Part shown: positions 4,125-57,460 of the stretch, one piece after another
Position numbering within the stretch: the stretch's first letter is position 1
How the letters are laid out: every line of letters begins with the position of its first letter
Source of the DNA: Terriglobia bacterium
GTDB taxonomy: Bacteria > Acidobacteriota > Terriglobia > Terriglobales > Acidobacteriaceae
DNA length: 64,000 bases
Assembly (NCBI GenBank): GCA_020072585.1
Contig: JAIQGL010000006.1
Coordinates: 37,808-101,807 of the forward strand
Direction: 5' to 3'
Position numbers and translations under genes: made by a program
The notes under the pieces: model-generated
The model's input: only the letters and a program-made list of their open reading frames with translations
What the model was told of the DNA's origin: nothing
Databases searched by the model: none

Positions 4125-6032
4125 CTATCCTCCCAAATGCTCCTGGAAGAACCGCACCATCTCCACCGTCGACCGTATCCGGTTGGGGACCTTGCGCCAG
4201 CCGTGGCCTTCGTCGGGAAACAGGATGTACTCTACCGGCACACCGCGGTCTTTTAGCGTCTTCACAATCTGCTCCGCTTCGATGACCGGCACATTCGTGT
4301 CATTGGCGCCGTGTTGCACCATGGTTGCCGCCTTGATGCGGTCCAGCTTGTAAATGGGTGACAGGCGGTCCAGCATGTCTTTCTGCGTCGCCGGATCGCC
4401 GTATTCAATCGTCGAAATCGCCGCCATCCACGGCTGCGTGTGCTGAAAGAAGGTCATAAAGTTGACGATCCCGAACAGGTCCACGCCCGCGGCAAACAGG
4501 TCCGGATACTCCGTTATACCTGCCATCGTCATATAGCCGCCGTACGAGCCGCCCGTGATGCCGATGCGCTTCGGATCGGCAATGTGATTGTTTACCAAAT
4601 AATCGACGCACGCCTTGATGTCTCTCACGCCGTTGACCCGCAGTTCGCCGTTATCCAGGTTCACAAACCTCTTGCCAAACCCCGACGATCCGCGCACGTT
4701 GGGCGCAAATACGCCGATCCCCTGGGCCAGCAGCGCCTGATAGTCGCTGCGGAAGGGCGCGCGCTCCTGCCCTTCTGGTCCGCCATGAAAACTCACTACG
4801 TACGCGCCTGGCCCGGTTTGATTTTTCGGGCGATAGAGCCAGCCGCTCAGCTCCAGCCCGTCAAACGACTTGAAGGTAACCAGCTCCGGCTTCACCAGCG
4901 CCGTCAGGTCCACTCCCGGATGTGGGCTAAAAGTAAGCTGGCGGAACCGCTGGGTCTTCACGTCCATGATCCATATGTCGGTCGTCTGCGCCGCGCCGCC
5001 AATATTCATGGCCAGCTTCGAACCATCTTTGGAGAAAGCCAGGCCGCCCGCCAACTCTCCCGGCAAGTCCGTCACATACGTGTGCGCATTCTTTGCCGGA
5101 TCGTACAGCGAGAGCGTGGTCTTACCTTTCACGTTCCACAGCAGCGCTGCCATGGTGCCCTGCTCGTTCAGCCGCAAGCCATCCAGTTCACCGTTGCCCA
5201 GGGACGAGAGAATCTCGATGTCGCTGGGCGTGCCGTCTGCCGCGAACTTGATCCTCCCGAACGCCATCAGATCGCGGTCTTTGTTCGTGCCGATGTATGC
5301 CGCTCCGCCGTCCGGCATAAGCTCGCCGAAAAACAACGCCACGCCATCATGTTTGGTGATCAGCGTGTCTTTGCCGCTGACCAGGTCCAGCAGGTACAGA
5401 TTATTGTCGCCGCGACTCTTTAGACGGCTCAGCAGCGCCCGCTTGCCGTCCTTGGAAATTCCATCAATGCTTCCGACACCCGGGTTCTTCGCCACCAGTC
5501 TGGTCCCGCCCGAAGCCACGTCGATCATGAAGCTGTCGCGTCGCGCCGGATCATCCCGGCTGGAATCAATCGCGATCTGCTTGCCATCGTCCGTCCAGGC
5601 GTCAAAACCGTTGTTGTCTTTGCCGCCCAGCGTCAGCAGCCTCATGCCGGTACCGTCCGGCTTGACCACATAAACTTGTGTGTTCAGTCCTCCGCCCGGC
5701 GCGATCGTCACCGCGATCCAGTCGCTCGCCGGCGACCACTCCTGCTCCGTTACCGGATCGTCGCCGTTGGTGACCATCCTCGGATACCCGCCCTCCGCCG
5801 GCACAATCCACACCTGCGGCGCGCCGCTTATGTTGGAGATGAAGCTCACCCATTTGCCATCGGGAGAAAACCGTGGCCCCACTGCGCTGCCCACGCGCGC
5901 CATACGAGCAACCGCGGCGGCAACGTCCTGCGTCTTGGCAGCCGAAGCCGAAGTCTGGCTCGCACCCTGCCCCATCGCGGCCACGCTCAGGCAACTCATC
6001 AACACAACAATTGAAGTTCGGCGAGAGCTCAT
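4125..6032 (-). CDS. Prolyl oligopeptidase family (S9) serine peptidase, secreted
   Basis: A 635-residue protein. The start at 6032 has AGGAG nine bases upstream and gives a signal peptide (MSSRRTSIVVLMSCLSVAAM) ending near AMGQGA. Residues about 40-370 are WD40/PD40-like beta-propeller repeats (SPDGKWVSFIS, TDDGKQIAIDSS, SKDGSKLAMN). The C-terminal alpha/beta hydrolase carries the nucleophile in GGSYGGYM, the acid in GANDTNVP and the catalytic His in DEGHGW. It probably cleaves peptides, possibly dipeptidyl or acylaminoacyl type, in the periplasm. Confidence 0.92.
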   Translation of the reverse strand: MSSRRTSIVVLMSCLSVAAMGQGASQTSASAAKTQDVAAAVARMARVGSAVGPRFSPDGKWVSFISNISGAPQVWIVPAEGGYPRMVTNGDDPVTEQEWSPASDWIAVTIAPGGGLNTQVYVVKPDGTGMRLLTLGGKDNNGFDAWTDDGKQIAIDSSRDDPARRDSFMIDVASGGTRLVAKNPGVGSIDGISKDGKRALLSRLKSRGDNNLYLLDLVSGKDTLITKHDGVALFFGELMPDGGAAYIGTNKDRDLMAFGRIKFAADGTPSDIEILSSLGNGELDGLRLNEQGTMAALLWNVKGKTTLSLYDPAKNAHTYVTDLPGELAGGLAFSKDGSKLAMNIGGAAQTTDIWIMDVKTQRFRQLTFSPHPGVDLTALVKPELVTFKSFDGLELSGWLYRPKNQTGPGAYVVSFHGGPEGQERAPFRSDYQALLAQGIGVFAPNVRGSSGFGKRFVNLDNGELRVNGVRDIKACVDYLVNNHIADPKRIGITGGSYGGYMTMAGITEYPDLFAAGVDLFGIVNFMTFFQHTQPWMAAISTIEYGDPATQKDMLDRLSPIYKLDRIKAATMVQHGANDTNVPVIEAEQIVKTLKDRGVPVEYILFPDEGHGWRKVPNRIRSTVEMVRFFQEHLGG

Positions 6033-6331
6033 GCAGTCTGTCTCCTTGACATTCAAAAATCCGTGCAACCATGTTATCCGTTTGTCAATTTTTAATCATT
6101 GACTCACTTGACGCGCTTTGGCTCGAGCCTCTGTAGGTATCAGGGACTGGCCAGCCCATGCTTGTAAGCATGAGTGAGCGACGCGAAAAGCTGCAAAAAG
6201 TGCCGTAGTGAAACTTCTGATTAAAGAGAAACTTCTGATTAATCGGGCTTTGCTCTCTGCGAGCTTGTAAGATCTTTCGGGTAGGTGTGGCGCGAAATAG
6301 GTTCCGTAAAGTAAACAGGCAGAAGAAATCC
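6033..6331. other. Gene-less stretch with a short direct repeat
   Basis: Between the S9 peptidase start and the small basic protein I see no gene. It holds a tandem pair of GAAACTTCTGATTA words (about 6210-6242) and a short CATGCTTGTAAGCATG hairpin near 6158-6173. No terminator was identified. Confidence 0.5.
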
Positions 6332-6595
6332 TTATCTGGATTTCTTTGCTTTAAAGGCGACTTTCTTTTTTGCGCTCTTGGGGGCGGTCTTCAGATCGAC
6401 CAGCGCCTTGAAATTGACATGGGGCGATGTCTTGATCCGAAGAATGTTTTCCATCTTCAGACCAAGATTGTTGGTGGACTTGAACTGTGATCCGGATATC
6501 ACCAGAGGCACTGCCGAACTGGTTTCGCGGGATACGCCCCACTCCGGAACAGATGCTCCAAAGTCCATCACGTCAATGAGTTTATTCCTGGCCAT
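6332..6595 (-). CDS. Small basic protein downstream of the SIR2-GAF gene
   Basis: An 87-residue frame, 54 bp after the stop of the SIR2-GAF gene on the same strand, so probably co-transcribed. The N-terminal two thirds (MARNKLIDVMDFGASVPEWG onward) look like a small folded domain. The last 20 residues are lysine-rich (KSAKKKVAFKAKKSR), suggesting nucleic-acid or anionic binding. The ribosome-binding site is weak (GGTGGAG, about 14 bases upstream). I do not recognise the family. It could be a partner or regulator of the upstream protein, but that is inferred from position only. Confidence 0.5.
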   Translation of the reverse strand: MARNKLIDVMDFGASVPEWGVSRETSSAVPLVISGSQFKSTNNLGLKMENILRIKTSPHVNFKALVDLKTAPKSAKKKVAFKAKKSR

Positions 6596-6649
6596 CTGAA
6601 GTAAGTTTACTCCACCTGCTATCTGGAATCCACACTCTTTTGATGCTGC

Positions 6650-8188
6650 TCAAGACGAAACCGCTGCAAAACCTGTAAGGCAGAAAGCCGCGGTACGGCG
6701 GATAATCGCGTGCAGCTCAGCTTCAAGAAGGTCTTGCTTCTTGCCGAACCGCGACCAGAAAGGGTCCGCCATGCTGGAAGTCAGGTTCAGGACAGCCACC
6801 GGCAGCCAGTAAGGCGTGTCGATAATTGGAATCGATAGAATCGACCGCCAGTCCCGGTAGCCCTTACGCGACACCCATTGCGTTCTCATACTGGCAGGGA
6901 AATTAATGTCCACGTCTCCTTCTCCATAGGAGACGGCCCTGACGGTACCGCTCACGAAACTGACTCCGGCAATGCCCTGCTCTCTTCCCTTTTTAATTTG
7001 CAGCCGCCGGTGACGCGCCTGCTTTTTTGCCTCATTCGCGGTGGACTGCCCGCCGGAGTAGCCAACCATGCGTATATCCACGGAAGAGCCATCAGAAAAC
7101 GGCACGAAGAGCGAAGCATTGATGTGCTCCTCCTGGGGAACGGCGAACATCTCCCTGATCTGCTGGCACAGCGCGTCCAGGCTCAGATGCACCAGAGTCT
7201 GCCAGTTGTCATTAAATATCAGCCGCTGTGGGACCTCTCTTTCGCGCCACTTCGCGGAGGCGTGCGCCCACGCAGGCAGCCGGCCGGGTCTGGGTTCACC
7301 CCATTGCACGTCACGAAGCAGACCTGGTATTTCTTCGTAGTTTTTCAGAAACAGCAAACGCAACCCGCGCTGCATCCAGTGCATGTCAAGATAGTGGTCC
7401 ACCACCGGCTGCTGCCGCACGGTCACTACAAAAATGTTTTTGGTTGAACTCAGTCCGTACTTGTTAAGAAAGTAGAGCACCCGCCGGAAATTCTGGTCAG
7501 CCAGGCTCATGCCCATGATGAGCGTAACGTTGTCGCCGGCCAGCATTCTTACCAGCTTGCTGTTCGCCGCCGCACTGGGGCGGGCCGTTAGCTCAATATA
7601 CTGTGACTCAGTCAGGACCAGCTGGTTGGCATTGCCATCGGGGTCAATCCAGCCATGGAGATGCTCGATCTTCTTTTTCACGAATTTTGTTTTTGTACCG
7701 CCGACTTTTCCGGGGCTGCGAAAATCAGTCCACTGGCTGCCCGGAAAACGCCGTGCCATGGCAAGTTCCAGCAGTGGATCAAAATTAAGCGTCCACACCC
7801 GCGCTTTTTCCGTCAGCGCGCTGATCTGATAGTGCACGGACCCCACGGGCAAGTCACCAATCTGACGCCCCTGATACAGCACCGCGGCCAACAGTGCGTC
7901 AAAATTTTGCGGAGCAGCGTGTCGTACAAAGTCCGCAACAGAATCTCTCCCCAGCACTGAATAAAGGGCGTCTACAGTGGAGCCAATGTAGGGTGTGGCC
8001 ACCAGCGCGGCGGGCGTGGCGCTGCCAATGGCCGAGGCAAGATATCCCTGCAGCAACGCCTTGTTCATCGCTTCCCAGCCTGGAAACCCTGATCCCTGCG
8101 AAATGCCGGCGCCTACAAAAACATTGAGCTTGCCCTTTCGGTAAGCCGCATGAAGACTGGCTACATACCCTGAACGAGGATCTTTCAT
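6650..8188 (-). CDS. SIR2-like NAD-binding domain fused to a C-terminal GAF-like domain
   Basis: A 512-residue protein with an AGGA site seven bases before the ATG. The N-terminal half is a SIR2-like Rossmann domain: NVFVGAGISQGSGFPGW (residues 22-38), TLNFDPLLEL (N135, D137) and EHLHGW (H176/H178). These correspond to the GAGxS, TxNxD and HG motifs needed for NAD hydrolysis in defence SIR2 enzymes. Residues about 335-505 read as a GAF domain: NASLFVPFSDG, REQGIAGVSFVSGTV, RSILSIPIID and LPVAVLNLTSS. There are no membrane segments. By analogy with other SIR2 NADases, it may degrade NAD when the GAF domain senses a ligand or infection cue. Function is inferred. Confidence 0.8.
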   Translation of the reverse strand: MKDPRSGYVASLHAAYRKGKLNVFVGAGISQGSGFPGWEAMNKALLQGYLASAIGSATPAALVATPYIGSTVDALYSVLGRDSVADFVRHAAPQNFDALLAAVLYQGRQIGDLPVGSVHYQISALTEKARVWTLNFDPLLELAMARRFPGSQWTDFRSPGKVGGTKTKFVKKKIEHLHGWIDPDGNANQLVLTESQYIELTARPSAAANSKLVRMLAGDNVTLIMGMSLADQNFRRVLYFLNKYGLSSTKNIFVVTVRQQPVVDHYLDMHWMQRGLRLLFLKNYEEIPGLLRDVQWGEPRPGRLPAWAHASAKWREREVPQRLIFNDNWQTLVHLSLDALCQQIREMFAVPQEEHINASLFVPFSDGSSVDIRMVGYSGGQSTANEAKKQARHRRLQIKKGREQGIAGVSFVSGTVRAVSYGEGDVDINFPASMRTQWVSRKGYRDWRSILSIPIIDTPYWLPVAVLNLTSSMADPFWSRFGKKQDLLEAELHAIIRRTAAFCLTGFAAVSS

Positions 8189-8207
8189 CGAGTTTTCCTA
8201 GGCGAAT

Positions 8208-8228
8208 GCGGTTTGGAGCGAAGCGACA
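8208..8228. repeat. Dispersed 21-mer (GCGGTTTGGAGCGAAGCGACA variant)
   Basis: It lies just upstream of the SIR2-GAF start. It forms a direct repeat with 8370-8390 (two mismatches), and the two copies bracket the GC-rich element. Confidence 0.75.
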
Positions 8229-8250
8229 TTTGATTCGTCCACAATATGGA

Positions 8251-8328
8251 GCGGCGAGGCCGGGGTCCCCGGCACGCACGGTGTTTGCGTGATGGGGTGA
8301 GAGGCCGACTTGCGCGCCGAGCCGCCTG
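8251..8328. repeat. GC-rich dispersed element, single-unit copy
   Basis: It shares both ends and internal order with 2408-2529 but lacks the second 45-bp unit. It sits between comM and the SIR2-GAF gene, flanked by direct 21-mer repeats. Confidence 0.8.
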
Positions 8329-8369
8329 CATCAGGAGCCTGTCAACAGTAGCCACGTCAAAACTCTTGA

Positions 8370-8390
8370 GCGGGTTGGAACGAAGCGACA
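8370..8390. repeat. Dispersed 21-mer immediately after the comM stop
   Basis: GCGGGTTGGAACGAAGCGACA, ending four bases from the comM stop codon. It matches the 2573 copy at 19 of 21 positions. Confidence 0.75.
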
Positions 8391-8394
8391 TAGA

Positions 8395-9945
8395 TTAAGC
8401 CCAGTACGTTCTATCCAGCGTCCTGTACTGGATCGCCTCCGCGATGTGTTGGCTCTCAATCTGCGGATTGCCTTCCATGTCCGCCACTGTTCGAGCGACC
8501 TTCAGGATCCGGTCATGCGCCCGCGCGCTCAAGCCCTGCTGCTGCATGGCCCGCTCCAGCATGCGCTCGCTGTCACTTCCCAGATCGCAATACGCCCTGA
8601 TCTGGCGCGAACTCATCTGTGCATTGGAGTAGTTGCGTTCCCCGGCAGCGGCAAAGCGGTTGAGCTGCACCTCACGGGCGCGCACCACGCGTTCCCTGAT
8701 CTGCGCCGAGCTTTCCGTTTTGCTGTCACTGCCGCGCAGCTCCTTGTAATTCACCGCCGGCACGTCGATGTGAATATCGATTCGGTCCATCAGCGGCCCG
8801 GAGATTTTCGACACATAACGCTGGATCATCGGTTCCGTGCACTGGCACTGCCGCTGCCCTGAACCGTGATAGCCGCACGGGCATGGGTTCATGGCCGCTG
8901 CCAGCATGAATCGCGCAGGAAAAGTCAGGGACATCGAGGCCCGCGCAATCGTCACGTTGCCGTCTTCCAGCGGCTGCCGCATCACCTCCAGCACGTTGCG
9001 CGGAAACTCCGGCAGCTCATCAAGAAAGAGCACGCCGTTGTGCGAAAGGGAAACTTCCCCCGGGCGCGGAATGATTCCGCCGCCGATCAATCCCGCGTCA
9101 GAAATCGTGTGGTGCGGAGCACGGAAAGGACGTGTGCTCACCAGACCGGCCGCGGCGTCCAACACTCCGGCCACGCTATGGATCTTGGTGGTCTCCAGCG
9201 CTTCTTCAAACGTAAGCGGCGGCAGTATGCCGGAGACGCGTTTGGCCAGCATGGTCTTGCCCGAGCCAGGCGGCCCGATCATCAGGATATTGTGCCCGCC
9301 GGCGCAGGCAATCTCCAGCGCCCGTTTGGCCGTGAATTGGCCACGCACCTCTTTAAAGTCCGCCGCGCCGCGCTCCGTCTCCCCCAGCATCTGTGAGGTA
9401 TCCACTTTCAGCGGCAAAACCCCGTTGCCGCTGTTGAGCAGGTTCACCACGTCAATCAGAGACCTCACCGGATACACATTCACGCCGCTCACCACAGCAG
9501 CTTCCCGCGCGTTCACTTCCGGCACAATCAGGTTGGCAATGTTTCTTGCCCGGGCCGCGATGGCAATGGGCAGCGCGCCGCGCACCCCGCGAATACCGCC
9601 ATCAAGTGAGAGCTCTCCCACCATCACAAACTCCGGCAGCTCTTTCTTTACCAGGCCGCCGTAGGCCCCCATGATTCCCATTGCCATGGGCAGGTCAAAG
9701 CCGGAGCCTTCTTTCTTGATGTCCGCTGGCGCCAGATTAATAGTGATCTGGCTCAGCGGTATCTCATAGCCGCAATTTCTCAGCGCCGCGCGGATTCTCT
9801 GCCGGCTCTCGCGCACCGCGGCATCCGGCAGCCCGACTGTCTGGAAGTTTTCTTTAGGGTCTCGCGCCGGACTGACATCGACTTCCACTTCAATGATGTT
9901 GGCGTCAATGCCGTAGACTGCTGCGCTCTGGGTTTTGAAGAGCAT
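8395..9945 (-). CDS. comM: YifB/ComM family Mg-chelatase-like AAA+ ATPase
   Basis: A 516-residue protein, the usual length for ComM/YifB. The N-terminal domain ([20 protein letters not shown], then [15 protein letters not shown]) is the Lon-protease-like fold of the family. The AAA core has Walker [14 protein letters not shown], Walker [11 protein letters not shown] and sensor segments. [15 protein letters not shown] is a zinc-binding cysteine cluster typical of the family. In Gram-negative bacteria ComM is a helicase promoting branch migration during natural transformation, which fits a genome with a type IV pilus operon. It stands alone. Confidence 0.95.
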
Positions 9946-57377: not shown

Positions 57378-57398
57378 TGTCGCTTCGCTCCAACCCGC
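57378..57398 (-). repeat. Dispersed 21-mer between pilB and pilT
   Basis: On the minus strand GCGGGTTGGAGCGAAGCGACA, identical to the 2573 copy except one base. It lies between pilB and pilT, in the pilT leader. Confidence 0.75.
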
Positions 57399-57460
57399 TT
57401 TTGCGACCTGGAGGGGCTTGCTGTATTCCGCTCTTTAGCTTGCCGTGCGGCGCGCTTTCA

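Follow-up and report, generated by a model that had tools for sequence, protein, structure and literature searches.

Which role can be assigned to a SIR2-like enzyme whose C-terminal half is predicted to fold as a ligand sensor and whose gene is followed by one for a small lysine-tailed protein? The question is raised by two genes on the minus strand of a 64,000-nucleotide stretch of contig JAIQGL010000006.1 from a Terriglobia bacterium, referred to here as the window. SIR2 NADases are recurrent executioners in bacterial immunity, and the systems that employ them differ in how they are triggered. As a sensor, the GAF domain is well studied and ligandable, and its fusion to a SIR2 enzyme would tie NAD depletion to a small-molecule signal within one protein, and the small downstream gene would provide a second control point. 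On our analysis, the two genes probably form a phage-defence switch of an undescribed kind.

The SIR2-GAF protein

The ORF at 6650..8188 (minus strand) is open for 512 codons and has many full-length homologues, which confirms it as a real gene. Its product was modelled by AlphaFold2 with a pLDDT of 90.9. SIR2_2 (residues 131-260; 48.9 bits, cut-off 24.5) was the sole Pfam domain found in it at E ≤ 1, and no NCBIfam model matched at the same threshold. The predicted SIR2 NADase-like domain comprises residues 1-300 (7289..8188), and comparison of the model with known structures placed the NADases of defence systems nearest to this fold. The motifs VGAGIS (residues 25-30), TLNFD (133-137, including N135) and HLHG (176-179) are present. 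Across 64 of the 72 family proteins, aligned with the shorter rows omitted, the predicted catalytic residues N135 (7784..7786), whose role we assume from sirtuins, and H178 (7655..7657) are each kept in 63 rows and D137 in all 64. The GAGIS loop (residues 26-30, 8099..8113) is gapped in three rows, and its G26, G28 and S30 are found in 61, 60 and 60 rows, respectively. H178 aligns with the residue mutated in the PDB entry named KomC(H146N). The original prediction of an intact SIR2 site was thus borne out, and a check of the homologues for loss of the NAD-site residues found them kept in 63 of 64. The lone exception, P0071, is a degenerate paralogue of 663 residues that has lost N135 and H178, kept the GAF part and gained a C-terminal extension. 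Outside this alignment, the SIR2 protein of the diverged locus L107 (618-2039) reads HLNG for HLHG, so that the predicted catalytic histidine is replaced. The front half of the window protein is therefore predicted from the model to fold like NAD-destroying anti-virus enzymes, with the active-site residues retained.

A GAF domain had been proposed for residues 335-505. The predicted structure does contain a GAF-fold domain, with its core at about residues 327-509 (6662..7210, minus strand), and residues 320-512 folded alone (pLDDT 93.7) gave a model that matches GAF domains; SLOG is absent among the listed structural matches of this region. The proposal was upheld at the level of fold but not by sequence profile, since at E ≤ 1 the Pfam GAF family matched neither the window protein nor its relatives at L107, L105, L009, L108 and L008. 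Diverged GAF domains may go undetected by sequence profiles. The conserved motif of this part is RDWRSILSIP (residues 445-454, 6827..6856, minus strand), in which S449 and P454 are kept in 64 of 64 rows, R448 in 62, and R445 and W447 in 61. A search with the GAF region for fusions to other effectors, limited by shared words, returned 11 proteins, all of them within the 72. By its modelled fold, the back half is predicted to be a small-molecule sensor of the GAF type.

The small downstream gene

The second ORF, announced as an 87-residue reading frame 54 bp downstream, was confirmed at 6332..6595 (minus strand), 54 bases after the SIR2-GAF stop codon. It encodes a lysine-tailed protein with a pI of 10.5, the candidate partner. 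No consensus promoter or terminator was found between the two window genes. At three other loci (L006, L007 and L009), an extended −10-like element, TGCTACA(G/C)T or TGCTATACT, was noticed by eye just ahead of the small ORF, after the stop codon of the SIR2-GAF gene. The 87-residue ORF was at first read as incidental because it has four homologues (66-94% identical over 77-85% of the ORF), has no Pfam family and is absent from the 60 related genomes other than its own. Moreover, the homologue P0074, which is 85% identical, is located on a 29,577-base contig for which no family protein is listed; this counter-evidence is weak because the listing gives the longest contig per cluster only.

Other SIR2-GAF genes also have a small ORF directly downstream, differing from that of the window. 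The recurrence was counted by a strict rule (ATG start, same strand, beginning −10 to +60 relative to the stop codon, length 55-95 residues), which was fixed after nine SIR2-GAF loci had been inspected. It was satisfied by eight of these nine, in comparison with 20 of 331 background genes, and by three of the seven loci scored later (L008, L108 and L109 fit; L110-L113 miss). In total, such an ORF follows 11 of 16 SIR2-GAF genes; among the other SIR2 genes the count is 1 of 15 (Fisher 4.8e-4), and in the background it is 27 of 382 (Fisher 4.4e-9). These probabilities are post hoc and come from non-independent loci, L006/L007, L108/L109/L111/L112, L110/L113 and L104/L105 being close. L008 was moved from the controls to the SIR2-GAF group because its C-terminal part looked GAF-like; before the move the control count was 2/16, and the final 15 controls, for which L106, L114 and L115 were considered, exclude it. 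L005 and the SIR2 controls L026 and L035 were omitted for short downstream DNA. Extending the rule to +100 gave 12/16 against 3/15 controls and 39/382 background genes, with a weaker contrast to the controls. When GTG starts were also accepted, the counts were 15/16, 5/15 and 75/382, and in L006, L007, L108, L109, L111 and L112 the first ORF so found differs from the homologous one. L110-L113 fail the strict rule because of GTG starts or larger gaps: the homologue of the L108 small ORF is an annotated 62-residue GTG ORF at +83 in L111 and a 60-residue ATG ORF at +95 in L112, and L110 and L113 have a 59-residue GTG ORF starting at +40. After the SIR2-GAF gene of L105 no small ORF was found. The suggestion that the small protein is a partner was accordingly supported by the recurring downstream companion (11 of 16), although linkage could not be demonstrated for the four homologues of the 87-residue ORF itself.

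The small ORFs do not form one protein family. This possibility was rejected, as pairwise scores exceeded those of shuffled sequences solely for L006/L007 (0/500) and weakly for window/L003 (7/500), the latter similarity lying around EWG[VL]S. The L107 small protein is unrelated to those of Rhodococcus. Seven of nine are basic (pI 9.7-11.3), the exceptions being L006 (pI 4.8) and L007 (6.6). Between L006 and L007, the small ORF (79% identity) has a dN of 0.164 and a dS of 0.895 (dN/dS 0.18), and the enzyme (90.5% identity) a dN of 0.059 and a dS of 0.930. For the Rhodococcus loci L108/L111 the dN and dS values are 0.291 and 0.981 for the small ORF and 0.164 and 1.844 for the enzyme; for L111/L112 they are 0.108 and 1.081, and 0.110 and 1.642, respectively. 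The small-ORF dN/dS is 0.10-0.37 in the Rhodococcus comparisons involving L111 or L112. Judged by these substitution rates, the small ORFs are coding and under purifying selection in two lineages (L006/L007 and Rhodococcus). In six of seven pairs dN is higher for the small ORF than for the enzyme, as would be expected for a rapidly evolving partner.

Distribution and genomic neighbourhood

The protein search, which scored the 7995 candidates sharing most words, yielded at E ≤ 1e-5 at least 72 proteins, one of them the window protein itself. Query coverage is 91% or more for 63 of these, and most have a length of about 515 residues. The SIR2-GAF gene is rare and its distribution very patchy. 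It was found in one of 61 relatives (its own genome only). At E ≤ 1e-40, the order of the window genome had it in 1 of 397 genomes (again its own), the class to which the L006 genome belongs in 4 of 317, and the order containing the L003 genome in 3 of 257. Across 396 genomes of the phylum there were 26 matches at E ≤ 1e-3, of which the window's own was the only one to cover the whole profile. A scan of genome contigs confirmed 12 loci. The phage records gave no SIR2-GAF match, and the viral contigs no confirmed locus.

The GAF-part profile scored 208-226 bits at L003, L004, L006 and L007, 86 bits at the truncated L005 and a marginal 13.7 bits at L009. In hhalign, L009 reached 94.6% over 163 columns and L105 71.8% over 49, and the C-terminal part of L107 alone gave 3.1%. 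The GAF profile did not match any ORF scanned from L105-L107, and in the case of L104 the correct ORF lay outside the scanned set. On the other hand, a seven-row alignment (L107, L008 and five plasmid loci) matched the 64-row family at 99.9% over 400 columns, spanning window residues 11-473 and running through the RSI..P and PVAV segments. The diverged relatives thus seem to keep the SIR2-GAF layout, less certainly than the close ones do. L104 and L113 were assigned to SIR2-GAF by eye, the latter being a 321-residue ORF without the SIR2 N-terminus. A plasmid search with the window protein gave a SIR2-only match and nothing else; the same search with L107 gave 12 records.

In the window, the two genes occupy the interval 6069..8394 between an S9 peptidase gene (4125-6068) and comM/yifB (8395-9945), beyond which the neighbours are ordinary by eye. 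The spot after comM is variable among relatives: within 5 kb on the comM-downstream side, 67 of 117 ORFs are singletons, versus 18 of 97 upstream. A defence island around the window gene was considered and rejected; judged by eye, the variable spot mostly carries ordinary genes. From the 56 variable ORFs listed for it, seven were picked by eye for a PADLOC scan and eight for a Pfam scan; these scans gave clear matches to PsyrT in L069 (PADLOC, 924.1 bits) and HEPN_AbiU2 in L071 (61.7 bits), and weaker ones to PDC-S11 (28.1 bits) and the FokI cleavage domain (19.8, below the cut-off of 25). In the same-genus relative L069 (2865-5910), the PsyrT protein directly follows comM and precedes a 360-residue ORF that is DprA/SMF-like by eye, and in the same-family relative L071 (4308-6533) HEPN AbiU2 and a PDC-S11-like protein are encoded after comM. 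A foreign base composition was likewise rejected (gene GC 0.563 versus 0.559 for the window). The intergenic sequence at the SIR2-GAF start (8190-8394) is a repeat that recurs at 2407-2529 with 81-83% identity; short parts of it are found near 57.4 kb (57378-57404), and pieces match next to comM in L046 and L049.

The surroundings of the diverged relatives are of another kind. L008 is flanked by QatC (195.8 bits), a CAP12/Pycsar-type TIR gene (70.9 bits) and an integrase (52.7 bits), L112 by an AbiJ-type gene (AbiJ_NTD3 105.8 bits; PADLOC AbiJ 57.4) and L107 by a Schlafen-group-3 helicase (308.9 bits). L107 also adjoins a 178-residue ORF with neither a Pfam nor a PADLOC match. The neighbours of L009 are LigD_N and PHP genes, the latter with a PADLOC match to Ppl (64.0 bits). 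The six annotated loci L108-L113 lie on plasmids of Rhodococcus and Paenarthrobacter, close to genes for integrases, recombinases or transposases. Of the diverged relatives, three adjoin defence genes and six are on plasmids, which partly supports the defence role proposed originally; the ordinary neighbours (by eye) of the window pair and of L003, L004 and L006 do not. The expected clustering of homologues with defence genes was likewise seen at L008, L112 and L107 but, by eye, not at L003, L004 and L006 or at the window spot.

Known systems, the proposed switch and its rivals

We rate the pair, from its sequence and modelled fold, as a SIR2-effector system with a putatively new sensor and a candidate new companion. 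In ThsA of Thoeris (SIR2-SLOG, PADLOC class STALD), the sensor is given as SLOG in passages of PMC11204291, whereas that of the window protein has a predicted GAF fold; the TIR protein ThsB is not encoded beside the window gene, where the small ORF is found instead. KomC has 264 residues and lacks a C-terminal sensor, in contrast to the 512 residues and predicted GAF fold of the window protein; its partner in KomBC is KomB, which is absent from the flanking genes, and the candidate partner here is a small protein without a Pfam family. The DSR2 chains of the DSR1/DSR2 group comprise 1,004-1,005 residues and thus also differ from the 512-residue protein with its modelled GAF part. Neither a HerA helicase nor a short Argonaute gene flanks the window gene, unlike in SIR2-HerA (Nezha, described as a SIR2-helicase system in parts of PMC11559045) and SIR2-APAZ/short Argonaute, and the STAND NTPase domain of Avs5 (AVAST type 5) was not found in the window protein, where SIR2_2 was the only domain at E ≤ 1. 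GAF is named among the nucleotide-binding domains of conflict systems in passages of PMC7159879 that do not mention SIR2. Among the matches listed from the openly licensed literature, no paper that brings SIR2 and GAF together in a defence setting was found, which agrees with the earlier remark that no described defence system is known to have this exact fusion.

The proposed mechanism is as follows. Before the cue, the GAF domain or the small protein would keep the enzyme off. A signal arising at the time of infection may then bind the GAF pocket or displace the small protein, the SIR2 domains would assemble and hydrolyse NAD+, and the cell would stop or die ahead of phage spread. Whether the pair is such an NAD-depleting, GAF-triggered abortive-infection module, with the small protein predicted to restrain the enzyme, we judge to be evenly balanced. 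The least certain step is the antitoxin-like role of the small protein, which is proposed by analogy. It is preferred because the defence toxin Sofic has an antitoxin, the short protein AS1, whose gene lies downstream of its own, as described in passages of PMC12249575; the likeness, a short-protein gene placed after an effector gene, concerns gene layout only, and the effector of Sofic is a FIC enzyme. A broader proposal is that the SIR2-GAF protein and its fast-evolving companion form a new, self-contained two-gene immune system, in which the GAF domain would read an infection-made small molecule directly and the lineage-specific small protein would set the trigger of the NADase, a system that would occur in Acidobacteriota, Chloroflexi and Actinomycetota (in the last on chromosomes as well as conjugative plasmids) and in one or more other lineages. 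We put it forward tentatively, as rather more probably wrong than right.

The main rival to the inhibitor role is that of an activator or sensor subunit, by which the small protein would recognise a phage component and switch the SIR2-GAF protein on. Its sequence varies by lineage while its position is kept, as expected if it tracked changing phage proteins, and DSR2 is described as switched on by a phage tail-tube protein and as turned on and off by phage proteins. On the other hand, the small proteins are short, mostly basic and without a recognisable domain, and the Sofic precedent for a downstream short protein is antitoxic; we regard an activator as unlikely. Also unlikely is an effector working in the manner of Thoeris, in which the GAF domain would bind a nucleotide synthesised by the product of a gene elsewhere, e.g. 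a TIR protein or a cyclase. GAF domains of phosphodiesterases bind cyclic nucleotides according to the titles of structure entries, ThsA was the best of the weak PADLOC matches of the window protein (32.7 bits, followed by LmuA with 31.0 and Dsr1 with 16.1), and L008 lies beside a TIR gene. However, the genes immediately flanking the window pair encode the S9 peptidase and ComM, and the TIR gene at L008 is on the opposite strand and belongs to a Pfam family named for effectors.

That the SIR2-GAF protein is a one-gene effector, the small ORFs being incidental genes or chance reading frames, would fit their lack of relatedness across most lineages, the absence of one at L105 and the contig of P0074. 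The enrichment over other SIR2 genes and the background, the purifying selection in two lineages and the homologous small ORFs found even at Rhodococcus loci that fail the strict rule argue against this reading, which we consider quite improbable. A housekeeping or stress regulator unrelated to phage, e.g. an NAD-dependent deacylase or a metabolic sensor, would suit the ordinary neighbours and the lack of matches in phage records and viral contigs but is decidedly improbable in view of the very patchy distribution, the predicted fold nearest to defence NADases and the diverged relatives on plasmids and beside defence genes. The preferred reading, a GAF-triggered NADase restrained by its small companion, is directly testable, since diverged relatives are carried by plasmids of named cultured Rhodococcus and Paenarthrobacter.
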